Below, in pieces: positions 16,615 through 33,283 of a stretch of DNA of 42,435 bases. The stretch lies in assembly GCA_011523635.1 (NCBI GenBank), contig WTGI01000036.1:1-42435 (forward strand), read 5' to 3'. Position 1 is the stretch's first letter. Each line of letters opens with the position of its first letter. The notes beneath the pieces are model-generated. The model was not told the origin of the DNA and ran no database searches. It saw only the letters and a list, made by a program, of their open reading frames with translations. Source of the DNA: Acidimicrobiia bacterium. Lineage in GTDB: Bacteria > Actinomycetota > Acidimicrobiia > Spongiisociales > Spongiisociaceae. Position numbers and translations under genes: made by a program.

Positions 16615-18379
16615 GTTCCGCCTGACCGCCAGACAGGAGCAAGCGGTTGGCAGCCGAGCGCGTGCGCTCACCGTCGTCGCAGGAGCGGGAACGGGCAAGA
16701 CCGAGGTCGTGGCGAGGCGGATCGAGCGCATTCTCGCGCAGTCGCCGCTCGAAGAGTTCAGAGTCCTGGCTCTCTCGTACACGGTCCGAGCCGCTGACGG
16801 CCTGAAGGATCGGCTCGCAAGCCGCCTTGGAGGACTCCACCGTCGGGTAGACGCCGACACGATCCACGGCTTCGCGCTTAGTGTCGTCCGGCACCATGGG
16901 ACTCTGGTCGGGCTTCCGCTGGAGCCTGAGATCCTCAGCCGAGACGAAGACCGCCGCGAACTCCTGTCGGCGTGGCTCAGGCGAGGGGGCTACAGGGAGC
17001 CGTCCGACCCCGCAAAGACGTTCCGCGAGTTGGACCTGGACCGAGCTCGGGGTAACGAGACCCGTCGCACAGAGACCTGGCGGCGCGTTCTGGCCGAGGC
17101 CGGAGCGCTGGACTACCAGGCGATGCTCGACCGGGCCGCCGAGGTGCTCTCGCTGAGGGGCATCCGCCGGATCTATGGGGCGCTGTACGAGCACGTCGTC
17201 GTCGACGAGGCCCAGAATCTGACCAGGTCGCAGTACAGGCTCCTCACATCGCTCATAGGCCCTCCAGGCGGCGACCACGTCGCTGCCACGCTCGTGGGCG
17301 ACGAGCGGCAGTCGATTGTCGGCTTCGCCGGGGCTGACCACACGCTGATGGGAGTCTTCGAGCGACAATACGGTGCTGAGCGAATCGAGTTGGGCGCCAA
17401 CTTCCGATCCGCCCAACGCATCGACCGCGTCGCTCGGAGGGTCGCGTCCGCTTTGAGCCTTCCATTGGACATGCCCCGCGGCCGTTATGCAGCTCGCGGC
17501 GAATTGCGGCTAGCCGAGTTCGACTCAGAGGCCGACGAGGGAACAGGCGTCGCGTCATGGATTGAGAAGCAACTCGCATGCGGACTCCCGAAGGATGCTG
17601 TCTCGCGGGATGAGGCCACCTCGGTCGCACCCGAGCAGATTGCTGTCCTTGGTCGCTCAGCTGCAGCATTGATTCCCTCGCGCGACGCGCTCGACAAGTT
17701 GGGAATCCCGCACGCCTCGGCCAGCACCCCGGATGCGTGGGTAACAAGCCCGCCCGCACAGGCGGTCTTGGAGTTCATCGGCTTCAAGAGCGCGCCTGAC
17801 CATATCTCCATCCGCCGTAGCCTGTCACGTCTCTGCGGCAGGGATCCTGATGAGAAGTGGACCGATGTGTCGGCGTTGTTCCTCCGGTGCGCCGACCCCG
17901 ACTTGGCCGAACTCGCCCGGATAGGAACGGTCGCCACTCCTGAGGAGCTAGTTGCCGCGCTGCGCCACCTCGACATCAGCGATCCGGATTGGTGGGACGA
18001 CAGAGCGCAGATCAAGGATTCATGGACGTCGTTCGTCGACCGAACCCCGGTCGGCTCGCAGTCCTTCGCCGAGTTCAAGCATCACATCGCCAGATGCCAG
18101 CGAGGTGACCCGCTCGATCCCGGCGTGCGCTTGTTGACCGTGCACAAGTCACAGGGACGCGAGTTCAGGAGCGTCGCGGTGGTGGCTTGCAACGAGGGTC
18201 GGTTTCCCGACTTTCGAGCCAACACCCCAGAAGCGGAAGAGGCAGAACGGCGCACCTTCTATGTGGCTGTCTCAAGACCGTCTCGATCCTTGCTCCTCAC
18301 CCGCGCCCGCGTGCGGAGAACCTGGTACAGAACTCTCCCCACGAGCCCGTCACCCTTCTTGGAGTGGGCGCGAGATTAG
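16607..18379 (+). CDS. UvrD/Rep-type superfamily 1 helicase (GajB-like)
   Basis: This 590-aa protein carries the full set of SF1A helicase motifs: Q-like LTARQEQAV (6-14), Walker A GAGTGKT (26-32), Walker B DEAQ near 199-202, GDERQSI, TVHKSQGREF near 510-519 and FYVAVSRPSRSLLLTR near 550-565. GajB of Gabija is a UvrD-like helicase paired with the OLD nuclease GajA, and the 8-bp overlap with the upstream OLD gene supports the match. Here the partner is disrupted while the helicase is intact, so it may be orphaned or acquiring another use. About 100 aa longer than typical GajB. Confidence 0.85.
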   Translation: MAEFRLTARQEQAVGSRARALTVVAGAGTGKTEVVARRIERILAQSPLEEFRVLALSYTVRAADGLKDRLASRLGGLHRRVDADTIHGFALSVVRHHGTLVGLPLEPEILSRDEDRRELLSAWLRRGGYREPSDPAKTFRELDLDRARGNETRRTETWRRVLAEAGALDYQAMLDRAAEVLSLRGIRRIYGALYEHVVVDEAQNLTRSQYRLLTSLIGPPGGDHVAATLVGDERQSIVGFAGADHTLMGVFERQYGAERIELGANFRSAQRIDRVARRVASALSLPLDMPRGRYAARGELRLAEFDSEADEGTGVASWIEKQLACGLPKDAVSRDEATSVAPEQIAVLGRSAAALIPSRDALDKLGIPHASASTPDAWVTSPPAQAVLEFIGFKSAPDHISIRRSLSRLCGRDPDEKWTDVSALFLRCADPDLAELARIGTVATPEELVAALRHLDISDPDWWDDRAQIKDSWTSFVDRTPVGSQSFAEFKHHIARCQRGDPLDPGVRLLTVHKSQGREFRSVAVVACNEGRFPDFRANTPEAEEAERRTFYVAVSRPSRSLLLTRARVRRTWYRTLPTSPSPFLEWARD

Positions 18380-18415
18380 CCCCGATCGTTCACGTATCCG
18401 GTGTCACAGGGTGGG

Positions 18416-18605
18416 TGTACCCTCAATCGCGATGAGCGCGATCATCTTCCCTGTCGACTCGGGGCGATCCGGTGCTGGATTACGTCAAGCCTGAGCACCG
18501 GGCACGCATCCGCATCGATGCGGCGCTGGCCGCCTCCGGCGGGGAGGTCCAGAACTACCGGCGCGTGGTGGTGGCCGCCGCCCCATGTGGGGCGGTCTGC
18601 AGAAC
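18416..18605 (+). pseudogene. hsdR leader and 5'-fragment c
   Basis: Bases 18416-18474 repeat the hsdR leader almost exactly up to the GTG start. The frame then reads VLDYVKPEHRARIRIDAALA with GGEVQNYRR, matching the first 35-40 residues of HsdR, before diverging at about 18605. From there on the sequence belongs to the convergent hicB-like gene. It is a truncated duplicate of the hsdR 5' end with its leader, ending exactly where the HicAB cassette begins. Confidence 0.88.
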
Positions 18606-18788
18606 GTCAGGCGGTTCGCTCACCAACTGGACATCCAATTCTTCAAGGACGCCCTGACATCCGGCCCATTCGTGGATCATTTTCATCAGATCCGGCAGGT
18701 GGCCAGCCCCACCTGTGAAGCCTAGGTCGTCCTCGGCCCACCACGTGGTTCCCTCTTGCCGGTTCAGGTATACCCGTACCGTGTGCAT
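18555..18788 (-). CDS. HicB-like antitoxin with atypical tail
   Basis: The 77-aa protein MHTVRVYLNRQEGTTWWAED continues LGFTGGAGHLPDLMKMIHEW, the partial RNase H-like fold typical of small HicB/DUF1902 antitoxins. AGGAGGAGG precedes the ATG and its A overlaps the TGA of hicA (TGATG). The last 16 residues (about TAPHGAAATTTRR) are encoded on the strand opposite hsdR-fragment c, so the natural C-terminus was probably replaced when the cassette joined that fragment. The usual DNA-binding C-terminal domain of longer HicB proteins is absent. Confidence 0.75.
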   Translation of the reverse strand: MHTVRVYLNRQEGTTWWAEDDLGFTGGAGHLPDLMKMIHEWAGCQGVLEELDVQLVSEPPDVLQTAPHGAAATTTRR

Positions 18789-19057
18789 CAGGTTCCTCCT
18801 CCTGCGGTGCGCTTGCCCCACAATAGACGTGCCACCTCTTCATCGGTCAGGCCCGCACGCTGAACCAACATGTGTCGAAGAGCGCGCGGCGGAACCTCGG
18901 TGCCGCCGTGGAAGGCGAATCCGATTGGTCGCCGACCCGGGGACACCAGCTTCCGATGCGAGCCCCGCTGCCGCTCGGTCTCGTAGCCGATCCTCTCCAG
19001 CAGTCTCAACACCTGGCGCGCCTTGAGCGCGGGATAACGACTTGCCGGAATTGCCAT
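18788..19057 (-). CDS. hicA: HicA mRNA interferase toxin
   Basis: The 89-aa protein has the double-stranded RNA-binding-like HicA fold: ALKARQVLRLLERIGYETER, then RQRGSHRKLVSPG with the catalytic GSH-x5 motif, and VPPRALRHMLVQRAGLTDEEV. HicA cleaves mRNA and is neutralised by HicB. It is slightly longer than the 60-80 aa norm because of extra residues at both ends. The gene starts at ATG 19057 directly at the expected transcription start of a consensus promoter, so the mRNA is likely leaderless. Order toxin then antitoxin is standard for hicAB. Confidence 0.88.
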   Translation of the reverse strand: MAIPASRYPALKARQVLRLLERIGYETERQRGSHRKLVSPGRRPIGFAFHGGTEVPPRALRHMLVQRAGLTDEEVARLLWGKRTAGGGT

Positions 19058-19092
19058 CGGCTCAACGTACCTACAGTTGGCATCGTTGACAA
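19057..19092 (-). promoter_or_regulatory. Promoter of hicAB, leaderless geometry
   Basis: On the minus strand TTGTCA (19092-19087) and TACGTT (19069-19064) are 17 bp apart. Seven bases after the -10 box lies the A of the hicA ATG at 19057. Confidence 0.6.
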
Positions 19093-19191
19093 TCCTAAGT
19101 CTAGCGTAGTAGCTGCTTCACACTATTTTAGGTTGACATGGCAGCATCCTGAACCCGCTCATCCCGACATCCGCTTGCGTCACAGGCCGGG

Positions 19192-19250
19192 TGTACCCTC
19201 AATCGCGATGAGCGCGACTCACTTCCCTGTCGACTCGGGGCGATCCGGTG
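19192..19250 (+). repeat. hsdR leader, copy d (in front of intact hsdR)
   Basis: This is a 59-bp leader from TGTACCCTC to the GTG start codon of hsdR, matching copies a (13207-13266) and c (18416-18474). Similarity reaches some 10-15 bp further upstream (gtcacagg). The conservation over non-coding DNA suggests promoter and translation-initiation function, or the recombination point of the cassettes. Confidence 0.8.
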
Positions 19251-22061
19251 CTGGATTACGTCAAGCCTGAGGACCGGGCCCGCATCCACATCGACGAGAG
19301 CCTGGCCGCTTGTGGCTGGGAGGTCCAGGACTACCGGCACGCGGCTGTAGCAGCCGCTCCGGGCGTGGCGGTCCGCGAGGCCCCAACCGAAGCCGGACCG
19401 GCCGACTACGTGCTGTTCGTGGACGGACAAGCGGTGGGCGTCATCGAGGCCAAGAAGGAGGGTCTACCGCTGACCGGTGTCGAGTCCCAGACCCGCAAGT
19501 ACCAGACCTCGTATCCAGGCTCGCTACCTGCGTTCCTCGTCGATGGCGCTCTGCCTTTTGGGTACGAGTCCACCGGGATGGAGACCCGCTTCACCTCGGG
19601 CCTCGATCCGGTTCCCACCTCGCGCAGGGTGTTTTCCTTCCACCGACCCGAGACGCTGGGACGCTGGCAGAACGACTACGCGGACGGAATCGGGGTGTCC
19701 GGGATCCGCGGTGGGCTGCACTTGCTGCCCGATCTCGACGACCGGGGCCTGTGGCCCGCGCAGGCGAAGGCGATCCGCAACCTGGAGGAGTCGCTGCGTG
19801 ACAACCGGCCCCGCGCGCTGATCCAGATGGCCACCGGCGCCGGCAAGACCTTCACCGCGGTGAACGTCTCCTACCGGCTCCTGCGTCATACGGCCGCCCG
19901 GAGGGTGCTGTTCCTGGTGGACCGGGCCAACCTAGGCCGCCAGACCATCCGCGAGTTCGAGGGTTTCGACACTCCCGACGACGGGCGCAAGTTCACCGAG
20001 CTGTACAACGCCCGGATGCTGGACTCGTCGGAGTTCGACATCGCCGGCGAGCAGGCCACCAAGGTCCACGTCTCGACCATCCAGCGTCTCTACTCCATCC
20101 TGCGAGGCGATCCGATCGACCAGGATCTCGACGAGAAGACCGGCTTCGAGACCGCCCCGACGGGTCCGGTCGAGGTTGCCTACAACGAGAAGCTGCCCAT
20201 CGAGTCGTATGACTGCATAATCGTCGATGAGTGCCACCGTTCCATCTACGGGGTATGGCGGCAGGTGCTGGAGTACTTCGACGCCTTCCTCATCGGCCTC
20301 ACCGCCACACCGGGCAAGCAGACCTTCGGCTTCTTCAACCAGAACCTGGTCATGGAATACGGCCACGAGCAGGCGGTGGCCGACCGGGTGAACGTCGACT
20401 TCGACGTGTTCCGCATCCGCACCGAGGTCAGCGAGGCGGGCGGAACAGTGCAGGCCGGCTTCGTGACCGAGTTCCGGGACCGGGAGACCCGCGAGCAGCG
20501 CTTCGAGCAGATCGATGAGGACATCGACTACACCGCCGCCCAACTGGACCGCAAGGTAGTGGCCCCCGACCAGATCCGTACGGTGATCCGCACCCTCCGG
20601 GACTCGATGCCCGAGATGTTTCCCGACCGCGTGCTACGTGAGGACGGGCGGCTCGAGCATATCCCCAAGACGCTCATCTTCGCCAAGACCGACAGCCACG
20701 CCGACGACATCGTCCAGATCGTCCGCGAGGAGTTCGGCCTCGGCAACCTCGGCGCGGTGAAGATCACCTACACGGCCGGGCTCTCCGGCCACAAACCGGA
20801 AACGCTGCTGCAGAGCTTCCGCACCAGCTACGAGACCCGCATCGCGGTCACCGTGGACATGATCGCCACCGGCACCGACGTCAAGCCCATCGAGTGCGTG
20901 GTGTTCATGCGCATGGTCCGAAGCCGCAATTTCTTCGAGCAGATGAAGGGTCGAGGAGTACGGGTGATGCCTGCCGGAGACCTGCAGATCGTCACTCCAG
21001 ACGCCCACGCCAAGGAGAAGTTCGTCCTGGTGGATGCCGTGGGCGTGACCGACACCGGCCTTCACGACACCGTCCCGCTCGAACGCAAGCCCGGCGTAGG
21101 GTTCGACCGCCTACTCAACCTGATCGGCCTCGGGGACACCAGCGAAGACGTGATCTCCTCGGCAGCCGCCCGCCTGGCCCGGCTCGACAAGCGCATCACC
21201 CATGCCGACCGTTCCGAAGTGGAGGAAATCGCGGGCATGAGCCTCGGAGAGATCGCGAGCCTCATGGTCGACGCCCTCAACCCGGACCGCCATCACGCCG
21301 AAGCGCAAGCCGCGGCAGGTGGCGAAGAACCCGATGAGGCACAGATCTCCGCCGCCCGTAAGCAGCTGGTCAAACATGCTGTCCAGCCCTTGGCAGGCAA
21401 CCCGAAGCTTCGTGAGAAGCTGATCGAGGTACGGCGCAGCTACGAACAGATCATCGACACGGCCACCAAGGATCAAGTGATCTCGGGCGAGTTCTCCAGA
21501 GACGCCACCGACCGGGCTAGGAGCACGGTCGAGTCGTTCCGGCAATTCATCGAGAACCACCGCGACGAGATCAATGCTCTGGACATCCTCTACCGCCAGC
21601 CATATGGCACCAGGCTCACCTACGCCGATATCAAACAGCTGGCTAACGCCATCGCAAGGCCGCCCCGAGCCTGGACCCCCGATGTGCTGTGGCGGGCCTA
21701 CGAAGTGCTCGACGCCTCGAAGGTGCGCGGGTCAGGGCCGAGGGTGAACACAGATCTGGTCAGCCTGGTCCGCTACGCGCTGGATACATCCGACGAACTG
21801 ATCGCCTACTCCGACCTGGTGAACGAGCGGTTCGAGGCTTGGCTGGCGCAGCAGGCCAGCCCGAAACACACCTTCGATGACAGCCAGCTTGCCTACTTGC
21901 GGCTCATCAAGGACCACGTAGTTGCCAACCTTTCGGTGGTACCTAGAGATCTCATGGAAACTCCCTTCAGTACCCACGGTGGCCTCGGTCGGGCCCGCCA
22001 ACTCTTCGGCACAGACCTCGAAACTCTCCTCACAGAACTGACGCGAGCGCTGGCCGCATGA
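19248..22061 (+). CDS. hsdR: Type I restriction enzyme R subunit
   Basis: The 937-aa HsdR has an N-terminal PD-(D/E)XK nuclease (D53 in ADYVLFVDG, E67-x-K69 in GVIEAKK). The superfamily 2 translocase follows: Walker A MATGAGKTFTA near 195, DECHRSI near 327, SAT-like LTATPGKQT, and MIATGTDVKPIE with RSRNFFEQMKGRGVR for motifs V and VI. A C-terminal helical domain of about 250 residues docks to the methylase. It uses ATP to pump DNA and cuts unmodified DNA far from the recognition site. The GTG start at 19248 is fixed by the conserved leader. The stop overlaps hsdS by ATGA. Intact, normal size. Confidence 0.95.
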   Translation: MLDYVKPEDRARIHIDESLAACGWEVQDYRHAAVAAAPGVAVREAPTEAGPADYVLFVDGQAVGVIEAKKEGLPLTGVESQTRKYQTSYPGSLPAFLVDGALPFGYESTGMETRFTSGLDPVPTSRRVFSFHRPETLGRWQNDYADGIGVSGIRGGLHLLPDLDDRGLWPAQAKAIRNLEESLRDNRPRALIQMATGAGKTFTAVNVSYRLLRHTAARRVLFLVDRANLGRQTIREFEGFDTPDDGRKFTELYNARMLDSSEFDIAGEQATKVHVSTIQRLYSILRGDPIDQDLDEKTGFETAPTGPVEVAYNEKLPIESYDCIIVDECHRSIYGVWRQVLEYFDAFLIGLTATPGKQTFGFFNQNLVMEYGHEQAVADRVNVDFDVFRIRTEVSEAGGTVQAGFVTEFRDRETREQRFEQIDEDIDYTAAQLDRKVVAPDQIRTVIRTLRDSMPEMFPDRVLREDGRLEHIPKTLIFAKTDSHADDIVQIVREEFGLGNLGAVKITYTAGLSGHKPETLLQSFRTSYETRIAVTVDMIATGTDVKPIECVVFMRMVRSRNFFEQMKGRGVRVMPAGDLQIVTPDAHAKEKFVLVDAVGVTDTGLHDTVPLERKPGVGFDRLLNLIGLGDTSEDVISSAAARLARLDKRITHADRSEVEEIAGMSLGEIASLMVDALNPDRHHAEAQAAAGGEEPDEAQISAARKQLVKHAVQPLAGNPKLREKLIEVRRSYEQIIDTATKDQVISGEFSRDATDRARSTVESFRQFIENHRDEINALDILYRQPYGTRLTYADIKQLANAIARPPRAWTPDVLWRAYEVLDASKVRGSGPRVNTDLVSLVRYALDTSDELIAYSDLVNERFEAWLAQQASPKHTFDDSQLAYLRLIKDHVVANLSVVPRDLMETPFSTHGGLGRARQLFGTDLETLLTELTRALAA

Positions 22062-23374
22062 ACGAGCCACTCCCCGAAGGGTGGGCTAGGACGACGGTCG
22101 GAGGTATTTGTCTTCCGGTCGAAAAGGCCGATCCGCGATGGTCACCTGACCTCGAGTTCGAGTACATAGACATTGGGGGAGTTGATAGACGTACGGGCAG
22201 GATCATCCGAACGAAGTCCATTCGAGGCGCCGAGGCACCTTCCCGAGCCCGCCAACTCGTGAGAACTGGTGACACCGTGCTCTCTACAGTCAGGGTTTAC
22301 CTGGCGAAAATCGCTATTGTCCCGGCCAGACTTGACAACGCCATCGCGTCTACCGGTTTCTCCGTGCTACGTCCGGCCGTTGGCATCCATCCGATGTTCC
22401 TTATGTTCCAAACGCTGAGCGACGAATTCTTGGCCCTCCTTGACAGCAAGCAGACGGGAACAAGCTATCCCGCTGTCCGCGATCGAGACGTGCGAAAGAT
22501 GCCGTTGCGCATCGCACCGTCGTATGAGCAGGAGCGAATCGTCCAACGGATCGAGGACATATTCACTCGCCTGAATGCCGTCGAGATGACCCTGAAGTGC
22601 CTGATCAACAGGCTGAGGCTGTTGCGCTCCGCTGTTCTCGCCGACGCTTTTTGTGCTGACCGTGACCTGCCACCGGACTGGATAAGCATGACAGTAGGCG
22701 ATGTAGCCGAGGTTCAACTCGGTCGTCAACGTTCGCCAAAACACCACACGGGAAAACAATTGCGTCCTTACCTCCGAGCTGCCAACGTGACTTGGGACGG
22801 TATCTCCCTTGACGATGTAAAGGAGATGAACTTCGATGACAGGGAGTTCGAACGATACCGACTTGAACCACATGACCTCCTACTCAACGAAGCATCAGGG
22901 ACGCCCAGCGAGGTAGGAAAACCCGCTATCTGGGGTGGTGAGATAAAGGATTGCTGCTTCCAAAACACCCTCCTCCGATTACGTCCGCAGGGTCTCGATC
23001 TGGACTACCTGTATTGGTACTGCTACTTCTCAGCTTCGACAGGACGGTTCGGGGAAGCTAGCCGCGGTGTCAATATACGGCATCTCGGGAAGCGAGGACT
23101 GTCCCGGTTCCCCATCCCGGTAGCTCCACATGGCGAACAGAGCCGGATTGCCGACGATATCAGTAATCAGTTCCACAATATCCGGTTGCTGCGAGAATCG
23201 ATTGAGGATGCTCAGAACCGAGTTGCCGCGTTGCGTCGGTCAGTGCTGGCCGAGGCCTTCGCCGGGCGGTTGGTTCCACAAGATCCCGAAGACGAGCCGG
23301 CTTCGGTCTTACTCGAACGCATAGCCGCCTTCCGGCCGACCATGCCCAGACGTCGGAGAAAGGCCCGTGCATGA
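22058..23374 (+). CDS. hsdS: Type I restriction enzyme specificity subunit
   Basis: The 438-aa HsdS has two target-recognition domains, each followed by a conserved coiled coil. TRD1 runs from GWARTTVGGIC to SYEQERIVQRIEDIF, with the helix NAVEMTLKCLINRLRLLRSA. TRD2 runs from DWISMTVGDVAEVQLGRQ to HGEQSRIADDISNQF, and the final helix ends in RRSVLAEAFAGRLV. Each domain reads half of the bipartite target. DNA in the TRDs, especially 22690-22980, is visibly more A/T-rich than hsdR or hsdM, as expected for horizontally shuffled recognition domains. Overlaps both neighbours by 4 bp. Confidence 0.93.
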   Translation: MNEPLPEGWARTTVGGICLPVEKADPRWSPDLEFEYIDIGGVDRRTGRIIRTKSIRGAEAPSRARQLVRTGDTVLSTVRVYLAKIAIVPARLDNAIASTGFSVLRPAVGIHPMFLMFQTLSDEFLALLDSKQTGTSYPAVRDRDVRKMPLRIAPSYEQERIVQRIEDIFTRLNAVEMTLKCLINRLRLLRSAVLADAFCADRDLPPDWISMTVGDVAEVQLGRQRSPKHHTGKQLRPYLRAANVTWDGISLDDVKEMNFDDREFERYRLEPHDLLLNEASGTPSEVGKPAIWGGEIKDCCFQNTLLRLRPQGLDLDYLYWYCYFSASTGRFGEASRGVNIRHLGKRGLSRFPIPVAPHGEQSRIADDISNQFHNIRLLRESIEDAQNRVAALRRSVLAEAFAGRLVPQDPEDEPASVLLERIAAFRPTMPRRRRKARA

Positions 23375-24834
23375 CTGCAGACCCGAAGACTCTGGTTCAG
23401 CGACTATGGGACTTCTGCGATGTGCTCCGAGACGACGGTCTCTCCTACGGCGACTATGTCGAGCAGATCACTTACCTCCTTTTTCTGAAGATGGCCGACG
23501 AGCAGGAGCGGCTGCTGGATGAGCGTCCGATAGTCCCACCCGAAGTCGACTGGTCGTCCCTGATGTCCAGATCCGGTCCCGACCTCGAATACCAGTACAA
23601 CTATGCCCTCGGCGTCTTGGCCCGGGAGCGGGGCATCCTCGGGGTGATCTTCCGGAACGCCCGGAACCGGATCCAGAGTCCGGCCAAGCTAGAACAACTG
23701 ATCAAGGACTTCGTTGACAAGCACGAGTGGCTGAGCCTCGAAGCTGATCTCAAGGGAGACGCCTACGAGGGCCTGATCGAGAAGACCGCTCAGGAGGGTG
23801 CCCGGGGCGCCGGCCAGTACTTCACGCCGAGGGCGCTGATCTCGGCAATTGTCGACGTTATGCGGCCCGGCCCGATGGACCGTATCTGCGATCCCGCCTG
23901 CGGAACGGGCGGTTTCTTCCTCGGCGCCTACCAGTCGATCCTCGACCGCCACCGGTCCCTCGATCCTGACCAGCGCGCCCATCTGCGCTCGGGAGCGTTC
24001 ACCGGCTGGGAGATCGCCGACCTTCCCGCCCGGCTGTGCGCCATGAACCTGCTACTCCACGGCATCGAAAGCCCCGACTCCGACTCGCCCATCCATGTGG
24101 ACGACGCTCTGAGAGACGATCCGGGCATGCGTTTCGACATGGTGCTCACCAATCCCCCATTCGGCCGCTCGTCCTCCGACACCTACGAGCGCGAGGACTT
24201 CTGGGCCACCACCCGCAACAAGCAACTCAACTTCGTCCAGCACGTGGTCAGCCTCCTCAAAGTCGGAGGTAACGCCGCGGTGGTGGTCCCCGACAATGTC
24301 CTGTTCGAGGCCGGCGCAGGCGAGACCATCCGCCGTCGCCTCCTCCACGACTGCGACGTCCACACCCTCCTCCGCCTCCCCACCGGCATCTTCTACGCCC
24401 AAGGAGTCAAAGCCAACGTCCTCTTCTTCGAACGTCGTCCGGGCGCCGCGCAGGCCGGCACCCGCGAACTGTGGGTCTACGACCTGCGCACCAACCAGCG
24501 CTTCACCCTCAAGCAGAACCCCCTCACCCGAGCCGACCTCGACGACTTCGTGAAGTGCTACAACCCCGACAACCGCCACCGACGCACCGAGACCGACCGC
24601 TTCAAGCGCTTCACCTACGAACAGCTGATGGCCCGCGACAACGTGAGCCTCGACCTCACCTGGCTTCGTGACGAGAGCCTCCAAGACACCGAAGACCTCC
24701 CCCCGCCCCACGTCATAGCCGCCGAGATGCTGGAAGAACTCCAATCCGCCCTCGCCGAACTAAGCGCTCTGGCCAAGATGCTCGAACCGGCCGGAACACC
24801 TCCACCAGGCTCCGCTAGCGATAACGCCGCATAA
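23371..24834 (+). CDS. hsdM: Type I restriction enzyme methylase subunit
   Basis: The 487-aa N6-adenine methyltransferase has an N-terminal helical HsdM domain (LVQRLWDFCDVLRDDGLSYG), the S-adenosylmethionine-binding motif DPACGTGGFFLGAY near 173-186 and catalytic NPPFG near 260. It modifies adenine in the recognition sequence, with HsdS. The GARGAGQYFTPRALI stretch is the typical approach to motif I. Length is normal and the frame intact. Gene order R-S-M on one strand with 4-bp overlaps differs from the more common M-S-R or R-M-S layouts. Confidence 0.95.
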   Translation: MTADPKTLVQRLWDFCDVLRDDGLSYGDYVEQITYLLFLKMADEQERLLDERPIVPPEVDWSSLMSRSGPDLEYQYNYALGVLARERGILGVIFRNARNRIQSPAKLEQLIKDFVDKHEWLSLEADLKGDAYEGLIEKTAQEGARGAGQYFTPRALISAIVDVMRPGPMDRICDPACGTGGFFLGAYQSILDRHRSLDPDQRAHLRSGAFTGWEIADLPARLCAMNLLLHGIESPDSDSPIHVDDALRDDPGMRFDMVLTNPPFGRSSSDTYEREDFWATTRNKQLNFVQHVVSLLKVGGNAAVVVPDNVLFEAGAGETIRRRLLHDCDVHTLLRLPTGIFYAQGVKANVLFFERRPGAAQAGTRELWVYDLRTNQRFTLKQNPLTRADLDDFVKCYNPDNRHRRTETDRFKRFTYEQLMARDNVSLDLTWLRDESLQDTEDLPPPHVIAAEMLEELQSALAELSALAKMLEPAGTPPPGSASDNAA

Positions 24835-24887
24835 ATGTCCCACCCCCGCCGTACGCTCATACATACGCGAAAACACAGGAAGCTGCC

Positions 24888-25679
24888 GTGAGCAACCGAA
24901 CCGGCATCGAGTGGACCGAGACCACCTGGAATCCCACGACCGGCTGCGACCGCGTATCGCCCGGTTGCGACAACTGCTACGCCCTCACCCTGGCCAAACG
25001 CCTCCAAGCCATGGGCCAACCCAAGTACCAGAACAACGGCGACCCCCGCACCAGCGGCCCCGGTTTCGGCCTGACCCTCCATCCGGACACCCTGGAAGCC
25101 CCGTACCGGTGGAAGGCCCCGAAACTCATCTTCGTCAACTCGATGAGCGATCTATTCCACCCGAAGGTCCCCCTCGACTTCATCCGCCAGGTCTTCCAGG
25201 TGATGACCGATACCCCCCGTCACACCTACCAGATCCTCACCAAGCGCTCCCAGCGTCTTGCCACCCTCGCTCCGGAACTCGACTGGCCCGACAACGTCTG
25301 GATGGGCGTGAGCGTAGAGAACCACCGTTACGCCTTCCGCGTCGACCACCTCCGCACCGTCCCCGCCGCCATCCGCTTCATCAGCGCCGAACCCCTTCTA
25401 GGTCCGTTGCCCGACCTAGACCTCTCGGGCATCCACTGGGTCATAGTCGGCGGCGAAAGCGGTCCCCGCTCCCGCCCGATGAAAGAATCCTGGGCCCTAG
25501 ACCTCCGCGACCAATGCGCGGCTGCGAATGTCGCCTTCTTCTTCAAACAATGGGGCGGCCCCACCCCAAAATCCGGCGGACGCCAGTTGGAAGGTGCTTT
25601 CCATGATGAGAGCCCAATCACTTCAATCCACGCTCAGGGCTCTTACACCCAAATGGTCTCTATCCGACATAAAGGATGA
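24888..25679 (+). CDS. Phage Gp37/Gp68 family protein (DUF5131)
   Basis: The 263-aa protein begins MSNRTGIEWTETTWNPTTGC and has the signature CDRVSPGCDNCYA, a three-cysteine cluster that gives the partner family its name. Further family motifs are LIFVNSMSDLFHP, YQILTKRSQR, GVSVENHRYAFRV and VIVGGESGPRSRPM. The fold looks like a radical-SAM-type barrel, and family function is not established. The GTG start at 24888 is preceded by AGGAAG. The last 77 bp overlap the start of the three-Cys-motif partner gene in another frame, and the C-terminal 20 residues after LEGAFHDESP look non-native. The pair is common in mobile and defence DNA. Confidence 0.85.
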   Translation: MSNRTGIEWTETTWNPTTGCDRVSPGCDNCYALTLAKRLQAMGQPKYQNNGDPRTSGPGFGLTLHPDTLEAPYRWKAPKLIFVNSMSDLFHPKVPLDFIRQVFQVMTDTPRHTYQILTKRSQRLATLAPELDWPDNVWMGVSVENHRYAFRVDHLRTVPAAIRFISAEPLLGPLPDLDLSGIHWVIVGGESGPRSRPMKESWALDLRDQCAAANVAFFFKQWGGPTPKSGGRQLEGAFHDESPITSIHAQGSYTQMVSIRHKG

Positions 25680-26872
25680 GCTGGTGACCGACAGGACCAT
25701 CTGGCACATCGAACAACATACGCTCGCCAAGCATGAGCTTCTGCGCAATTATCTTAGGGCCTGGTTCCCCATTCTCACCATTGGAGGATTCAACAGACGT
25801 GTCATCTTCCTAGACGGCTTTGCTGGTCCCGGCATATATGCTGGTGGCGAGCAGGGATCTCCCCTCATTGCCCTAGACGTCCTGGTTAATCATGCCAGCT
25901 TCCACAAGCTCAAGGACACTGAGTTCGTATTCATCTTTGTCGAGGCAGACGAAAATCGATTTAGGAGTCTCGAATCAGAACTAGATCGGTTCTGGAGTCA
26001 GCACATCCAAGGACGTCCAGAAAACATCATTGTGCACAGGTTCAACGATGAGTTCGCTAATGTTGCTAGGCAGATCACAACTACAATCGGCGACAATCAA
26101 CAATTGGCGCCTACATTCGCCTTTATCGATCCGTTTGGCTGGTCAGGAGTTCCTCTGTCATTGATCTGTGATCTGCTCTCATCAAACAAATGTGAAGTAC
26201 TTTTCAACTTCCCATACGATTCCGTCAATCGATGGGTGAATGATACTAGGCCAGAATTGGCTCGCCATTTTGATGAACTATTCGGAACTAACACAAATGA
26301 GCGCCGGGTGGCGGCCAACATGGACAGCGAAGAACGGAAAAGGTTTCTGTGTGATCTATATGTCAGCCAACTTAGACGCATAGGTAACTTCAATTTCGTT
26401 CGTCCATTCGATTCTCGATGTTGACCGTGGACGTACCGCATACTTTCTCGTATTCGGCACCCGCAGTATTAAGGGTCTCGAAGTGATGAAGGATGCGATG
26501 TGGAGTATTGATCCTGTAACGGGCGTCAGATTCTCCGGCTTCGCTGGAGATCAGATGATGCTATTCGATCCTAAGCCTGATCTCACCCCTCTTCGACGAG
26601 CCTTGCTTGGTAACTTCAAAGAAAGCGTAGTACGTGTTGAAGACATTAGAAAATATGTTCTGGAACAAACCGACTACAAGAGATCACACTGCACAGCAGT
26701 TCTACAAGAACTCGAGGATGAGGAACTGATCAAGTGTACACAAAGAAAAATACGTCGAACGTATCCTGACGGAACACTGATCACATTCTTACCCGAGAAC
26801 AAGGGCCGACTGTCCCGCTGGACTGATTTCGATTCTGGGATTGTGTACTTCTCTTCCGTCAGGAGCCAATAG
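25603..26872 (+). pseudogene. tcmP: Three-Cys-motif partner protein (TcmP), one frameshift
   Basis: The first part (ATG 25603 to stop 26424) has the TcmP landmarks: AKHELLRNYLRAWFPIL, RRVIFLDGFAGPGIYAGGEQGSP, FVEADENRF, PTFAFIDPFGWSGVPLSLI. Near 26400-26420 the frame shifts. The continuation reads DVDRGRTAYFLVFGTRSIKG, then LEVMKDAMWSIDPVTGVRFS and a winged-helix-like C-terminus to 26872. Restoring one frame yields a normal length of about 420 aa. The DNA is clearly more A/T-rich than its neighbours, pointing to foreign origin. GGAAGG lies before the ATG. The frameshift could be real or an assembly error. Confidence 0.8.
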
Positions 26873-26984
26873 CCTGCTGGAGCTTCTCTAGGGTGCGGTC
26901 GGAGTGGAGGCGCGTCTTCAGCTCGGAGCGCACGGTCCGCAGCACTGTCTCGCCGCGGTCGATCACGAACGTGCGCCGCTTGTA
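26859..26984 (-). pseudogene. Peroxiredoxin (Bcp) 3'-end remnant
   Basis: The minus strand encodes YKRRTFVIDRGETVLRTVRS, then ELKTRLHSDRTLE and a stop at 26859. It is collinear with the C-terminus of the peroxiredoxin at 32665-33126 (DKRRTFVIDRDGMVLRTVRS, ELNMRLHSDRALE). Only the last 41 codons remain. DNA identity to the second copy is high but not recent. The two lie on either side of the DUF4143/NACHT pair, in the same orientation. Its end overlaps the 3' end of tcmP by 14 bp. Confidence 0.85.
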
Positions 26985-26995
26985 GGCAAAGAAGG

Positions 26996-27017
26996 CACCC
27001 CCGCGATACCGGGGGTG
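26996..27017. terminator. Strong GC hairpin
   Basis: CACCCCCG and CGGGGGTG pair perfectly around a 6-base loop (cgatac). No T-run follows on either strand, so intrinsic termination is uncertain. It lies between the tcmP/peroxiredoxin-remnant junction and the promoter of the DUF4143 gene and may insulate the cassette. Confidence 0.45.
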
Positions 27018-27077
27018 GGGCTAGACCCGACCGTCCGCCCTCTGGCCCGCCCGGTAGTTTGTGGCTCTTGAGTAATT

Positions 27078-27115
27078 TTGCTCAATAGCTTCATCGGCAG
27101 GTATGATTCTGGCCA
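27078..27115 (+). promoter_or_regulatory. Promoter of DUF4143-NACHT operon, leaderless geometry
   Basis: TTGCTC (27078-27083) and TATGAT (27102-27107) are 18 bp apart. The predicted start of transcription is at or one base before the ATG at 27115, which favours this start over the upstream in-frame ATG at 27103, itself within the -10 box. The surrounding 60 bp are more A/T-rich than the genes. Confidence 0.6.
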
Positions 27116-28365
27116 TGCGGAGCTTCCAACGCTCGCAAGTTGAGGTCCTGAGAGAGCGTCTGTCAGAGCGACCGGAGCGCCTCGTGGCCGTATTCGGACC
27201 GCGACAGACCGGCAAGACGACCGCCGCTCGCCAAGCCGTGTCATCTTTCGCCGGCAGATATGAGGCGGTCGACGAGCCGGATTCGATCGTACCCGACCCC
27301 CGGCCGGTTACCAGAGAACCCTCTGGTGTGGGATCGCGGTCGATGGACCGGGATGTGCGCTGGCTGGCGGATGTCTGGGAGGAAAGCCGTCACGAGGCCC
27401 GCCGGTCGAGGCGAGGCTTCGTGCTGGTCCTGGACGAGATCCAGAAGATCCCCGGCTGGTCGGACGCCGTTAAAGGGCTGTGGGACGTCGACCGCGCCGA
27501 AGGCTGTCCGCTACATGTGGTCGTTCTCGGTTCCGCTCCCCTGCTGATGCAGTCCGGACTCAACGAGAGTCTGGCTGGCCGGTTCGAGCCGATTCGCTTC
27601 ACCCACTGGTCCTATACCGAGATGGCTGAGACGTTCGGGTTCGATCTGGACCGATACGTCTTCTTCGGCGGGTACCCGGGCGCGGCGTCGCTCGTTCATG
27701 ACCAGGAGAGATGGAGCGGCTACGTACGGGACGCTCTTATCGAGCCCATTATCGAGCGCGACGTTCTGGCGATGACCAGGGTGGACAAGCCGTCGTTGTT
27801 GAAGCGGCTCTTCGACATGGGCGCCCTGTACTCGGGACAGATCCTGTCGTACAACAAGATGCTCGGTCAGCTCCAGGACGCCGGCAACACCACAACCCTT
27901 ACCCGCTACCTGAAGCTGCTCTCGGACGCAGGCCTGCTGGCGGGGCTACCCATGTACACGGAGCGTCCGGTCTCGGCGAGGGCCTCGACGCCCAAGCTGA
28001 ACGTGCTCAACACGGCGCTGATGTCAGCTCTGTCTGGCTACAGCTTCGATGAAGCCCGTACGGACCGTACCTTCTGGGGTCGGCTCGTCGAGAGCGCGGC
28101 GGGCGCGCACCTGCTCAACACCGCGGCGCCGGGCACCGAGGTGAAGTACTGGAGGTACAGGAACCACGAGGTCGACTTCGTCCTGCAGCGGGGCCCGCGA
28201 ACGGTGGGGATAGAGGTAAAGACGGGCAGGATGCCGGTGACCACTCCAGGCCTGGCCGAGTTCGAGCGCCGGGTCCGCCCGCATAAGACCTTGGTGGTAG
28301 GGACAGAGGGCGAGCCCTTGCACGAGTTTCTGTCCGTTCCGGCTGATCACTGGTTTGGTATCTGA
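27115..28365 (+). CDS. AAA+ ATPase with DUF4143 domain
   Basis: The 416-aa protein has a P-loop at 28-36 (GPRQTGKTT), Walker B near 102-110 (FVLVLDEIQKIPGW), the sensor-like VVLGSAPLLM and a C-terminal DUF4143 domain (TLTRYLKLLSDAGLLAGLPM, then an endonuclease-like tail). The tail has the pattern VKYWRYRNHEVDFVLQRG followed by GIEVKTG, that is D...ExK. Such tails are suspected PD-(D/E)XK-type nucleases. Most family members are solitary. Here the stop and the ATG of the giant NTPase share one base (TGATG), so the two are translated together. Role probably defence, unproven. Confidence 0.85.
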   Translation: MRSFQRSQVEVLRERLSERPERLVAVFGPRQTGKTTAARQAVSSFAGRYEAVDEPDSIVPDPRPVTREPSGVGSRSMDRDVRWLADVWEESRHEARRSRRGFVLVLDEIQKIPGWSDAVKGLWDVDRAEGCPLHVVVLGSAPLLMQSGLNESLAGRFEPIRFTHWSYTEMAETFGFDLDRYVFFGGYPGAASLVHDQERWSGYVRDALIEPIIERDVLAMTRVDKPSLLKRLFDMGALYSGQILSYNKMLGQLQDAGNTTTLTRYLKLLSDAGLLAGLPMYTERPVSARASTPKLNVLNTALMSALSGYSFDEARTDRTFWGRLVESAAGAHLLNTAAPGTEVKYWRYRNHEVDFVLQRGPRTVGIEVKTGRMPVTTPGLAEFERRVRPHKTLVVGTEGEPLHEFLSVPADHWFGI

Positions 28366-31300
28366 TGAGAGTCGAGGTCGCCCGAACCTGCACGGTGATC
28401 CACCCGGCTGCCGGAGACAGCATCCGGGTTGGCGAGTCGTTACCTCTCAGCGAGTTGGGGTCCGTCCCCGCCTACGTCCTGTTGGGTGATCCGGGGGCCG
28501 GCAAGACGACCGCGTTTCGCAGGGAATGCGAGGCGTCAGAGGCTTCGGGCACAGCTGCCCGTTACAAGACAGCCAGGGATTTCGTCACCTTTGACGTTGA
28601 CTCGGATGGCGACCCGATCCTCTTCATCGACGGACTCGACGAGATACGCGTGGGATCGACGGACGCGCGGTCGCCGTTGGACCGGATCCGCAACCGCCTG
28701 GATCGTCTCCGGCCGCCCGGTTTTCGCATATCGTGTCGCGAGGCGGACTGGCTTGGCCTGAGTGACCGGCAGAGCTTGGTTCGTGTTTCACGTGACGGGC
28801 AGGTCGTCGTGGTGCGACTCGATCCGCTCGACGAGACCTCAATCCGGAAGATTCTGGGATCGCTGATACAGGAAAGTCCAGAGGACATGATCAACAAGGC
28901 CAAGCGCATGGGTGTCTGGCCCTTGCTGGAGAATCCTCTGACGCTGGAGTTGCTGGCAGGCGCGGTGGAGGGTGGGGGCTGGCCGGAGAGCCGACTTCAA
29001 CTCTTTGAAATGGCGTGCGAGCACTGGCTGGTGGGCGAGCACAACCCCGAGCATCAGGTCGCGGCCGGCCGAGAACCGGTGGGAAACATCATGGACGCCG
29101 CCGGATACCTATGCGCATTACAGCTGCTGGCAGGTATCGAAGGCTTTGTATTGTCGCCCGTGTCGGATAGTCCTTCGTTCGAGCCGCTCAATCGTCTCGA
29201 CAGTGGTTCCGACCTCCCCCTCGAGGTAATGGAACAGGCCTTGGCCACCCGGCTGTTCACCGAGGGGGCAACCGGCTTCCGACCACACCATCGCCACATA
29301 GCCGAGTTCCTGGCAGGACGCTACCTGGCAAAGCTCGTGGACCGCGGCCTCCCGGCCCGGCGTCTGACAGCATTGATGGCCAGCCCAAGCGACGGACGGG
29401 TAGTCACCAAACTGCGTGGTCTGTCCGCCTGGATCGCCGCCTATCCGGGTGAAGCTCGCGGTCTATTGATCGATGCTGATCCCGTCGGCGTCGGGCTCTA
29501 CGGCGACATCGGAGGTTTCTCCAACGACGACAAGTCGCGCCTCCTCTCCTCACTAGCCACCTTCGCCACGGAGGGCGCTCTGTTCGGTCATGGATGGCGC
29601 GACGGCCGGGAGAGTGGCTTCCGGGACAAAACTGCTTGGTCCTTCCGATCTATTGCGTCGGCGGAAATGGTCGATGTGATCAGAGGCATGGTCAGTTCGG
29701 ACCGAGTTAACGGATCCTCCGCTCGAATTGTCGGGTTCGTGCTGGAAGTAGTCTCCGAAGCTCCCGAGTCGGAACTGCCCTCCCTAGCCGGTCTGTCTCC
29801 AGACCTGGACACCATAGTGCGGGACGCGTCCAGCTCGTCACGGGCAAGGCTGGCGGCGCTTGATGCCTACCTTCACGTTACCCCGTCGGGTGATTCCAAG
29901 ACACGAAGACTCCGAGACCTTCTCAAATCCTTTCAGCGAGGAATCCTGCCTGATCCGGATTACCAGCTCCGCGGAACAATACTGGAATACCTACACCCCG
30001 GCGAGGTCACTCCGGCGGAGGTATGGCTGTACGCTGCGAGTCCTGACAGGCTCAACCTTATCGGAAGGTTCTGGAGATTCTGGAAACGATCTTTCGTCGA
30101 GAAGCTTTCTGACCAGCAGGTGGCTGAACTCTTGGACCTTATGGGTGATGAGTTCCCACCGTTATTCGAAGCGAGACAAAGGACTCTTTTCGAAGACATC
30201 CCAATTCGGCTGCTGTCTCGTGGATTGGTAGCGATGGGCGATGACCTCGAAATCTCTCGTCTATACAAGTGGCTCAGCGCGGTACAACGGTTTACGACAG
30301 GAAGGATTCGGCAAGGGTCGGGCATTAGGAATGGCGACCACACCGTGCGCACTTGGCTCGAGGCGCGTCCCCAGATGCAGAAACAACTGTACCTGGAACG
30401 GCTTAGGCAGATTCCAGATGGTCCGAACTGGCGCTATCAGAATCGATCCGGGGATGTGCATCGCGCCAGCAAACCTCCACCTGACTTCGGGCTCTGGTGC
30501 CTCGAACAGGCCCTCAGTTCATTTAGCGCCGAACCTACGGTCGCGGAACGACTGCTCGAATCGGCATACCTGTCGCTGAACGATCCGATGACAAACGAGA
30601 AACTGACAGAAGAACTCATCGAAGCGAGCGTCGAAGAACAGCCAGTTCTGAAGGATCACCTTCGTGAGCTTAGAGAAGTGCGCCACTCGTCAAGAAGGTC
30701 GGATCAAGAGTACGAGCATGAGTTGGACATCCTCAAGGAAAAGCAGGATAGTGAACTCCGCAACGACTGGGAAGTCCACCTTCGGTCCCACGAGTCCGAT
30801 CTGAGGTCGAATACTTTCTCACCTTCTAATCTTGAACGGCTGGCACTCGTGTATTCAGGAGAGATACAGACTCATGCGGCCGACTCTCCCTTGAAGCGTA
30901 TAGCTGAGTTCATCGGAGGCGATTCGAGCCTAGTAGACGCCGTTATGGCATCGTTACGAGGTGCCGTTTTGCGCGATGACCTTCCGTCCGTGGGTGAGAC
31001 CATCTCGTTGCACTCACAGTCACGCGAACCATTGCTGGCCTTTCCGGTGCTGGTGAGTATGGACATGCTCGCTAATGAGCCGGAAGTCGTGCTCCGGATC
31101 AGTGATAGGAACAGACGCAGAGCCCTGGCCCTCTACTACTGTTCTCCATTCCATCACCAAGTTGGAGACGGTGAGGGGGTCAGGTCGTGTCATAACGCGT
31201 GGCTGGATCAGGACCCCGGCTTGGTGCTTGATGTTCTCCACCGGTGTGCGGTGACCGCGTTACGCGACGGGGCAGAACACCTGCCCGGTGTCACCGACCT

Positions 31301-32525
31301 GGATCAGATCGAGCGACATCATGACCTCGCGGAACGCGCGAGGCTCAAACTACTCAAGGCCTTCCCGACCCGAATCCCCCGTCGGCAACTCCGGCAGTTC
31401 GACCAACTCCTGGGTACGACGCTGGCCCAAGCTGACAAAACCGCTCTCAAAGAGCTCGCCAGTAGGAAGCTGGCTATGCAGAGTATGAGCGTTTCCCATC
31501 GGATCAGATGGATGACGGTGGATGCCCTGCTCTCCGGACGCGAGCGAACGGAGCAGCTACGCGTCTACGCCGGCGCTACCGAGAGGCGGACCCGCCATCT
31601 GGCCGAGTTCCTGCACAACATTCGCGACCATCCCGGACGTACCTCAATCCGCTTCGAAGGGGCATCTGCTGAGTTGGTCGCCAGCCTGATTGAGTTGCTG
31701 GGTCGCACCTACGGTCCGCAGCGACCAGAGGGGTTCGTCACAGTGGACGTCAGCACCTCCGATCTGGTAAGTGGATTGATCTCGCGGCTCGGCTCAATGG
31801 CAGATACCCAGTCCATCGCGCGATTGGCGAGCCTGGTCGACAATCCGCTACTGACGCGCTGGCGCGAGCGCTTGCGATGGGCGCAGGAACAGCAACGAGT
31901 CCTGCGTCGCGACACTTCCTACAGCCACCCTGACATCGCAGATGTACAGCGTGCTCTCAACGGTGGAGCACCCGCCAACGTTGCCGACCTCGCGGCCCTA
32001 TTGTCCGATCGACTCAAGGACATCAGGGACCGGATCCGGGGAGACAGCGCCAACCCGTGGCGACAGTTCTGGAACGTGGATTCTTATGGACGTCCTACCG
32101 ATGCCAGGCCCGAAGACTCGTGTCGCGATGTCTTGCTCGAATTGTTGGGAGCACACCTTCCAGTCGAGGTTGATGTTGCCCCGGAAGGCCGGTATGCCGC
32201 GGACAAAAGAGCCGACATTCGGGTCTTCCACAACGGATACAACGTCCCGCTCGAGATCAAGAAGAACGGACACCGGGATCTGTGGAGTGCGCTCCGGAGG
32301 CAGTTGATCGGTCAATACACCAATGATCCGGCGACATCCGGCTACGGCATCTATCTGGTGCTCTGGTTCGGACCGGATGAGACCAAACCGCCGCCCGACG
32401 GCCCCCGCCCGGCGACCCCCGAGGAACTGTGTGGGCTGCTAGAGAAGGACCTGACCGGCGAGCAGGCGCGCAAGATCTCGGTCATCGTGGTGGACGTGAC
32501 CAAACCCATCCCCGATCTTTCCTAA
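28365..32525 (+). CDS. Giant NACHT/STAND-like NTPase with C-terminal PD-(D/E)XK-like nuclease
   Basis: This 1,386-aa protein has Walker A GDPGAGKT at 41-48 and Walker B PILFIDGLDEIR near 84-95, an Asp-Glu type like NACHT NTPases. A winged-helix-like region (WPLLENPLTLELLAGAVEGG, HRHIAEFLAGRYLAKLV) follows. About 900 residues of helical repeats without a sharp family match come next. The C-terminus (about 1255-1330) has CRDVLLELLG, KRADIRVF and VPLEIKKNGHRDLWSALRRQ, which read as D...ExK of a PD-(D/E)XK nuclease with a following helix. STAND NTPases of this plan sense phage products and trigger an effector. The match to known Avs types is not visible to me. GC varies: 29.8-31.2 kb is lower. 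Confidence 0.75.
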   Translation: MRVEVARTCTVIHPAAGDSIRVGESLPLSELGSVPAYVLLGDPGAGKTTAFRRECEASEASGTAARYKTARDFVTFDVDSDGDPILFIDGLDEIRVGSTDARSPLDRIRNRLDRLRPPGFRISCREADWLGLSDRQSLVRVSRDGQVVVVRLDPLDETSIRKILGSLIQESPEDMINKAKRMGVWPLLENPLTLELLAGAVEGGGWPESRLQLFEMACEHWLVGEHNPEHQVAAGREPVGNIMDAAGYLCALQLLAGIEGFVLSPVSDSPSFEPLNRLDSGSDLPLEVMEQALATRLFTEGATGFRPHHRHIAEFLAGRYLAKLVDRGLPARRLTALMASPSDGRVVTKLRGLSAWIAAYPGEARGLLIDADPVGVGLYGDIGGFSNDDKSRLLSSLATFATEGALFGHGWRDGRESGFRDKTAWSFRSIASAEMVDVIRGMVSSDRVNGSSARIVGFVLEVVSEAPESELPSLAGLSPDLDTIVRDASSSSRARLAALDAYLHVTPSGDSKTRRLRDLLKSFQRGILPDPDYQLRGTILEYLHPGEVTPAEVWLYAASPDRLNLIGRFWRFWKRSFVEKLSDQQVAELLDLMGDEFPPLFEARQRTLFEDIPIRLLSRGLVAMGDDLEISRLYKWLSAVQRFTTGRIRQGSGIRNGDHTVRTWLEARPQMQKQLYLERLRQIPDGPNWRYQNRSGDVHRASKPPPDFGLWCLEQALSSFSAEPTVAERLLESAYLSLNDPMTNEKLTEELIEASVEEQPVLKDHLRELREVRHSSRRSDQEYEHELDILKEKQDSELRNDWEVHLRSHESDLRSNTFSPSNLERLALVYSGEIQTHAADSPLKRIAEFIGGDSSLVDAVMASLRGAVLRDDLPSVGETISLHSQSREPLLAFPVLVSMDMLANEPEVVLRISDRNRRRALALYYCSPFHHQVGDGEGVRSCHNAWLDQDPGLVLDVLHRCAVTALRDGAEHLPGVTDLDQIERHHDLAERARLKLLKAFPTRIPRRQLRQFDQLLGTTLAQADKTALKELASRKLAMQSMSVSHRIRWMTVDALLSGRERTEQLRVYAGATERRTRHLAEFLHNIRDHPGRTSIRFEGASAELVASLIELLGRTYGPQRPEGFVTVDVSTSDLVSGLISRLGSMADTQSIARLASLVDNPLLTRWRERLRWAQEQQRVLRRDTSYSHPDIADVQRALNGGAPANVADLAALLSDRLKDIRDRIRGDSANPWRQFWNVDSYGRPTDARPEDSCRDVLLELLGAHLPVEVDVAPEGRYAADKRADIRVFHNGYNVPLEIKKNGHRDLWSALRRQLIGQYTNDPATSGYGIYLVLWFGPDETKPPPDGPRPATPEELCGLLEKDLTGEQARKISVIVVDVTKPIPDLS

Positions 32526-32664
32526 TCCTGCACCCCACCGGAATGTCAGGGGCCGGGTGCTTGATCGGTGATCAGGGGTTGATGGTCACCCGAACCATCC
32601 AGAACAGGCACCAGATTCCGAATGGGTCTCGCGCGCCGGGTGTCAGGTTCGAGGAATAGCCCCC

Positions 32665-33126
32665 TTAGCCCGTAAGGCCCGTCGCCTTGCGGAGGGCCTC
32701 CAGGGCGCGGTCGGAGTGGAGGCGCATGTTCAACTCGGAGCGCACAGTTCGCAGCACCATGCCGTCCCGGTCGATCACGAACGTGCGCCGCTTGTCCGGG
32801 AGGAAGCGGCCCCGCGACACACCGAAGCTGCGGGCGATGGCGCGGCTCGGGTCGGCGAGCAGCGCGAAGCCCAGGGAATTGGCGTCATCGAACTCGAGTT
32901 GCCGATCAACCTGATCGGCGCTGATTCCCACGATGCTGGCGCCGAGTTGGGCGAACTCTTCCGACAGGTCGCGGAAATAACAGCTCTGGCGCGTTCAGCC
33001 CCGAGTCATCGCCTTCGCGTAGAAATACACCACCACGGGACCCGAATCGAGCAGGTCGCGCAACACCAGCGTGTTGCCATGCTGGTCCAGCGCCTCGAAG
33101 TCAGGCGCTTTGTCTCCCGCCTTCAC
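32665..33126 (-). CDS. bcp: Bcp/PrxQ-type peroxiredoxin with in-frame UGA at the peroxidatic Cys
   Basis: From GTG 33126 (AGGAGGAGG upstream) the frame reads MKAGDKAPDFEALDQHGNTL, then VVVYFYAKAMTRG, UGA (32997-32995), TRQSCYFRDL and on to a normal C-terminus (DKRRTFVIDRDGMVLRTVRS). It totals 154 codons, the family size. In Bcp the motif is PKAMTPGCT...C; here UGA replaces exactly the peroxidatic Cys (codon 44) and the resolving Cys (codon 49) is kept. Selenocysteine is known at this position in other peroxiredoxins. However, the two conserved prolines of the motif are Ala and Arg, so inactivation is equally possible. If UGA is a stop, only the downstream part remains. Confidence 0.6.
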
Positions 33127-33283
33127 GTTTGTCCTCCTCCTTCCGCCAACCGGGGAACATTATGGCGTTCCGGCTGCGCATCCGGCTGTCAAGGGCTGTC
33201 CTCGCGGGATCACCGGACGGCAGGGCATCCGGTCGTGTTCTCGGCCTACATATTCAGGTCTGTCATTACTGTTCGATGATCGT

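Follow-up and report, generated by a model that had tools for sequence, protein, structure and literature searches.

A likely selenocysteine peroxiredoxin gene of Acidimicrobiia with a putative distal SECIS hairpin

Known selenocysteine peroxiredoxins and bacterial SECIS elements

Selenocysteine (Sec) at the peroxidatic site of Bcp-type peroxiredoxins is already known (PMC1088965, PMC2398784). The TxxU Sec-peroxiredoxins (COG1225/pfam00578), such as PrxU from Eubacterium acidaminophilum, are AhpC/TSA-fold peroxidases with the same Sec-for-Cys swap as the gene described here, and the Sargasso Sea was reported to contain the Bcp group of that gene, COG1225 (Sargasso Sea and GOS sets; PMC1088965, PMC2398784). 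A review describes the PxxxTxxU motif of Sec-peroxiredoxins as conserved (PMC13188914). In contrast to these known proteins, the genus studied here and several further Sec lineages have lost the first proline of that motif, Pro(-7), and the SECIS candidate is found 83 nt after UGA. The CP-X4-CR spacing of the present protein recurs in Mycobacterium tuberculosis BcpB/PrxQ B (5epf), which differs in carrying both Cys and Pro(-7) and in falling on the Cys side of the subfamily.

The bacterial SECIS consensus (bSECISearch; PMC13188914) is a coding-region hairpin with a loop of 3-5 nt, of the form N1-G-[G/U]-N-N2 with N1 and N2 paired, whose apical loop lies 16-37 nt after UGA; reviews note that some bacterial elements do not fit this model. 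The hairpin proposed here, P4, fits the loop model, including N1-N2 covariation (A-U, C-G), but its loop is at 83 nt, with about 65 nt of folded arm in between. Archaeal and eukaryotic SECIS elements in 3' untranslated regions act far from UGA, as P4 would; however, they have another structure and use helper proteins, whereas P4, with its bacterial-type loop, lies within the coding region. In the literature searched, which excludes most subscription papers, no bacterial SECIS was found that lies far from UGA or contains a three-way junction, and none at 83 nt with a folded spacer. What is new is thus the SECIS arrangement, whose role is supported by computation only; the selenoprotein family is known, and the gene adds a member to it.

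The peroxiredoxin gene and its predicted product

The window, a stretch of 42,435 nucleotides of an Acidimicrobiia bacterium (contig WTGI01000036.1), carries a peroxiredoxin (prx) frame of 153 residues plus stop on the minus strand, whose sole internal stop is TGA at codon 44 (Table 1). A preliminary description, made from the sequence alone, had claimed a single UGA where the catalytic Cys belongs, a resolving Cys kept five residues later and a strong ribosome site at the GTG start, and all three claims held. The motif around UGA is YFYAKAMTRG-U-TRQSCYFRD, in which U44 and the resolving C49 have the five-residue separation that defines PrxQ/Bcp proteins.

Table 1. Positions of the peroxiredoxin gene, its RNA elements and the second copy in the window
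Feature	Position	Strand	Remark
Bcp/PrxQ-type peroxiredoxin gene, predicted to contain Sec	32665..33126	minus	GTG 33126, TAA 32665-32667
Ribosome-binding site GGAGGAGG	about 33133-33140	minus	read directly from sequence
Predicted Sec codon UGA, codon 44, peroxidatic position	32995-32997	minus	conserved in orthologues
Unpaired 10-nt stretch, UGA to arm	32985..32994	minus	minimum-energy fold; most Sec orthologues
Folded spacer arm, about 64-65 nt	32920..32984	minus	closed by P1
P1 GCUG/CAGC	32981-32984 / 32920-32923	minus	closes arm
P2 UUCC/GGAA	32973-32976 / 32925-32928	minus	within arm
P3 GAGUUC/GAACUC, apical helix	32944-32958	minus	within arm
P4, proposed distal SECIS hairpin GCCGAUCA-GGU-UGAUCGGC	32901..32919	minus	conserved in Sec genes, compensatory changes
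P4 loop GGU	32909-32911	minus	83 nt after UGA
3' fragment of second prx copy	26865-27002	minus	last 46 codons; 82% DNA identity to the window's own prx

The fold of the read-through protein is shown by sequence and computation. It matches AhpC/TSA (Pfam E 1.9e-33) and PRK09437/PrxQ, and its AlphaFold2 model, with 47 homologues as input, has a pLDDT of 95.6. The nearest solved structure is 5epf (phmmer E 8.4e-38), which is also the best structural match to the model (TM 0.93, 48% identity). The AhpC/TSA fold expected of a PrxQ/Bcp protein is therefore present by Pfam match, model and structural match. The PxxxTxxC/U signature is not met, as it reads AxxxTxxU in the window's genus and SxxxTxxU in a relative (L060). 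The gene probably encodes a functional PrxQ/BcpB-type selenocysteine peroxiredoxin, Sec insertion and the enzyme chemistry being inferred.

Conservation of the UGA codon and selenocysteine machinery

The same single TGA is present in eight other genomes of the genus, in orthologues with 90-97% protein identity, and chance or sequencing error is therefore ruled out. UGA is found in nine of the ten genomes of the genus, the tenth having no prx gene, and further relatives in the sponge-type clade likewise carry TGA. The bacteria concerned are marine and mostly of the sponge type. A scan of named genomes groups the window with Acidimicrobiia metagenome-assembled genomes, several of them in isolate series (SB06xx, RHO and APA) whose labels suggest sponge metagenomes. 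About 58 orthologues have UGA at the peroxidatic position, mostly from Acidimicrobiia with a few Myxococcota metagenome-assembled genomes, and the scan gave 80 prx loci, about 46 with UGA and 34 with Cys. Across about 100 homologues, UGA at codon 44 aligns with the conserved redox Cys as a Sec/Cys pair. Genes of the two kinds are called Sec and Cys genes below; all Sec members seen are predicted selenoproteins, Sec incorporation being inferred without experiment.

Purifying selection is likewise shown computationally. Within the genus, mean pairwise dN is 0.027 and dS 0.230 (ratio 0.12), and the constraint acts on both sides of UGA, continuing downstream of it. On a tree of 114 rows, the Sec/Cys state needs at least seven changes and the distal hairpin six. 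This tree rests on about 150 columns and is weakly resolved, with two independent Sec/Cys pairs on starred branches; the relatedness of the sequences means that counts run higher than the true tally of independent events.

The genome satisfies what is expected of a bacterial selenoprotein producer: it is shown to encode SelA (429 bits), an adjoining SelB (318 bits), SelD (380 bits) and a tRNA-Sec with anticodon UCA (77 bits). SelD has its own in-frame UGA (GGGUASK; L053, G000:C90:35467-36396) and a SECIS of textbook type, GGCGCAG-GUC-CUGCGCC, with the loop 33 nt after UGA.

The proposal in the preliminary description that Sec occupies the peroxidatic position is thus supported by conserved UGA, selection, machinery and the Sec-specific RNA structure described below. 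It had named selA, selB, selC (tRNA-Sec) and selD as genes to search for, and all were found; alignment at codon 44, also suggested there, gives UGA across the genus and both UGA and Cys beyond it. The refutation it foresaw, homologues all with Cys and other damage in this copy, does not apply. That codon 44 is read as Sec is very probable, indeed near certain, on sequence and computation, although the insertion itself is inferred and no experiment bears on it.

A distal hairpin and a folded arm downstream of UGA

In the window, P4 is a hairpin of 8 bp with a GGU loop (-11.2 kcal/mol) that directly follows the closure of P1 without a linker. The minimum-energy fold is the P1-P4 structure (-39.5 kcal/mol, z -2.6; P4 alone, z -4.4). 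The shared hairpin, GCCGAUC[A/C]GGU[U/G]GAUCGGC with a G-first loop, occurs in 55 of 57 Sec genes, and at least six of seven P4 pairs are kept in 55/57 Sec against 1/43 Cys homologues. At 83 nt, roughly double the textbook range, P4 fails the consensus distance from UGA to loop. However, because the arm is closed and abuts P4, an effective spacing of about 18 nt (10 + 8) can be inferred; it is possible, though no more than an inference, that this fits the 16-37 range, and only if the folded arm is left uncounted.

Conservation of the RNA structure in Sec genes is shown by several computations. Alifold on 120 nt gives -11.15 against -4.95 +/- 0.74 for Sec genes and no signal for Cys genes. Over 48 Sec genes, the 22-pair structure has 96.2% of cells paired and five pairs with changes on both sides; no shuffle of 500 matches it on paired fraction or covariation score, and slid-structure controls reach 17-55% paired. 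P4 alone is 95.6% paired in Sec rows, with four pairs showing double (compensatory) changes, whereas the same positions in 34 Cys rows are 58.6% paired overall and 33.8% in P4. When codons are redrawn synonymously with each protein kept, Sec genes exceed expectation in P4 (6.60 of 7 pairs observed, 4.48 +/- 0.13 expected), P1 (3.77 of 4, against 2.63 +/- 0.16), P2 (3.95 against 3.51 +/- 0.07) and P3 (5.37 against 4.84 +/- 0.08); in Cys genes, P1, P2 and P4 are at or near expectation. Alignment-free ensemble folding of 100 nt gives median pair probabilities of 0.96 for P1 and 1.00 for P4 in 57 Sec genes, and 0.00 for both in 43 Cys genes.

Individual sequences show the same pattern. P1 is built by the codons of two serines. 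AGY is used for one of them in 57/57 Sec genes and 30/43 Cys genes (Fisher p 5e-6) and for the other in 54/57 and 26/43 (Fisher p 3e-5), both values being uncorrected for relatedness. In L151 the residues over P4 differ (ADPWDQ for ADQVDR), and an 8-bp hairpin is kept with loop GUG; paired P4 substitutions also occur in L104, L115, L118, L132, L152, L155 and L158. Searching 32600-33200 against Rfam returns no SECIS family, even with the threshold relaxed to E <= 5, and the element was not found in other genes of the genus, a covariance model finding one place per genome.

There are exceptions. Sec genes in G047 and G052 lack P4 and have kept UGA but lost the resolving Cys. The P4-less genes (L012:607-726, L013:1627-1746) contain GGC-U-GCCG-AGUU-CGGC-GCC, whose loop, 37 nt after UGA, falls inside the published range, and it may be that their SECIS has been relocated, as inferred from sequence. 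Conversely, one Cys gene (L131, 5130-5229), a neighbour of Sec genes in the first tree, still has six of seven P4 pairs; it is probably a recent Sec-to-Cys change.

Several candidates closer to UGA were rejected as SECIS elements. A CGCG...CGCG stem just after UGA, put forward in the preliminary description, is not conserved: its pairing is disrupted in L060, and it does not occur beyond the sponge-type clade. Hairpins formed by UUUCCG/CGGAAG, GGAAA/UUUCC and GUCAC/GUGAC near UGA are each confined to some lineages, and consensus folding of the first 48 nt after UGA gives no signal above synonymous permutation. Bacterial SECIS prediction near UGA, which had also been suggested, is not discriminating: 51/57 Sec and 40/43 Cys genes can form a hairpin at 16-37 nt that satisfies the published constraints, and since the frequencies are similar, these constraints neither exclude nor support a proximal element.

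Proposed mechanism and alternatives

In the preferred model, UGA at codon 44 would be read as Sec by the genome's own SelA, SelB, SelD and tRNA-Sec. The SECIS would be the distal hairpin P4, with its G-first, mostly GGU loop 83 nt downstream, and not the usual hairpin at 16-37 nt; SelB carrying Sec-tRNA is inferred to bind this loop as usual. The arm may serve as a folded spacer whose base lies 10 nt after UGA, cutting the effective distance to about 18 nt. Sec44 would reduce peroxide and form a selenenylsulfide with Cys49, to be regenerated by thioredoxin. As a whole, the combination of Sec gene, distal SECIS and arm-shortened spacing is the likely explanation on computational evidence, with Sec insertion, SelB binding and the role of the arm all inferred.

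A bolder reading, also probable and also computational, is that this is a distinct bacterial SECIS architecture, in which a G-loop hairpin about 80 nt away is bridged to UGA by a closed arm of about 65 nt. Jointly with the architecture, it appears likely that the arrangement is conserved in Sec-peroxiredoxins of Acidimicrobiia and some Myxococcota and lost with the change to Cys, and that loss of the signature proline has repeatedly been tolerated. Bacterial selenoprotein finders search for a SECIS within 16-37 nt of UGA. If a distal, arm-bridged SECIS is real, that distance is no rule, and selenoprotein genes may have been missed or annotated as broken. The model gives a testable account of the way in which the SelB-SECIS complex gains access to the A site, and it bears on how a catalytic motif that cannot bear an adjacent hairpin keeps Sec.

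The best surviving alternative, though an unlikely one, is that P4 is the SECIS but works from afar, with the folded arm playing no part. Covariation is strong in P4, while P1 and P2 show wobble changes only, with no double compensatory changes in Sec rows; P1 is barely formed in L118, and is lost in L156 and in L158, which keeps P4. The lack of double changes and the little or no P1 in L118 and L158 are why this alternative is retained. Against it, in Sec genes P1, P2 and P3 all pair more than synonymous resampling predicts, in about 80% of these genes the arm closes precisely at the P4 base, and L156 re-closes its arm by shifted pairs after the loss of P1.

It is very unlikely that Sec is inserted via a classical proximal hairpin at 16-37 nt, with P4 and the arm serving mRNA stability or translational pausing. 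Constraint-meeting proximal hairpins are possible in most Sec genes (51/57), and the genome's SelD and a second Sec-peroxiredoxin family of the same bacterial family use proximal loops. However, such hairpins are equally present in Cys genes (40/43) and vary in position, the folding ensemble favours the closed arm over the proximal region, and P4, whose loop is of the expected G-first/GGU form, goes together with Sec.

Plain decay, which the preliminary description held to be the main alternative, would make this a pseudogene with a nonsense mutation and a damaged active-site motif, as the UGA at a key residue, two altered motif prolines and a stump of a second copy could suggest; but UGA and the altered motif are common to the genus at dN/dS 0.12, the Sec machinery is complete and the Sec-specific RNA structure is conserved, and decay is excluded for practical purposes. 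A further reading, in which translation ends at UGA and the 43-residue product is functional, or in which an ordinary amino acid is inserted by low-level read-through, is favoured only by the absence of direct protein evidence and is all but excluded by strong purifying selection on downstream codons, the kept catalytic fold, the exact replacement of the catalytic Cys by UGA and the UCA tRNA-Sec.

Active-site prolines and a second Sec-peroxiredoxin family

In the window gene, Pro(-7) is replaced by Ala and Pro(-2) by Arg. The preliminary description had noted both substitutions correctly, but its view that both prolines are near-invariant fails for Pro(-2), which varies in Sec and Cys members of the subfamily alike (Ala, Thr, Lys, Tyr, Phe, Ser); Arg at this position is therefore not damage. 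All 56 Cys homologues have Pro(-7), the P of PxxxTxxC. In 17 of 58 Sec homologues Ala, Ser, Leu, Ile, Gln or Tyr replaces it, and its history on the tree requires at least five changes. This recurrent loss in Sec members alone raises the question of whether selenium relieves the need for the residue. Because tests on independent pairs lack power, the idea that Sec relaxes the proline remains a hypothesis.

The resolving Cys is replaced by Arg, Ala or Asn in the Sec-peroxiredoxins L012, L013, L156 and L158. It is possible, judging from their sequences, that these are one-Sec enzymes that need an external reductant.

A second Sec-peroxiredoxin family (L186, L187 and L188; VVLWWYAKAATEGU...) is found in the same bacterial family. 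Its motifs, WWYAKAATEGU and WWYTKAATEGU, lack Pro(-7), and Gly, not a resolving Cys, lies five residues after Sec. Its SECIS loop is of the classical proximal type, in a hairpin GGGGUUC-CGUGCC-GAACCCC near UGA.

Second peroxiredoxin copy and genomic neighbourhood

The other peroxiredoxin copy is indeed a stump, as first described. This fragment has 84-90% DNA identity to prx of several relatives, against 82% to the window copy, and could perhaps have been brought by an incoming element as an attachment-site remnant, although this is inferred from sequence; no integrase was found among the island proteins scanned.

In relatives, prx is flanked directly by sequence matching 13.6-14.5 kb of the window and, on the other side, 36.6 kb. 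In the window, the prx 3' end adjoins about 18 kb in which defence genes predominate, with the prx fragment inside, at the island edge. Since relatives lack most of the island, the prx 3' site looks like an insertion hotspot. The defence island (15805-32525) contains an OLD-TOPRIM protein and a UvrD/GajB-like helicase (Gabija-like), type I restriction-modification genes in the order R-S-M, the PADLOC candidates PDC-M30/M41 and PDC-S01, and a protein of 1386 aa that matches no Pfam family.
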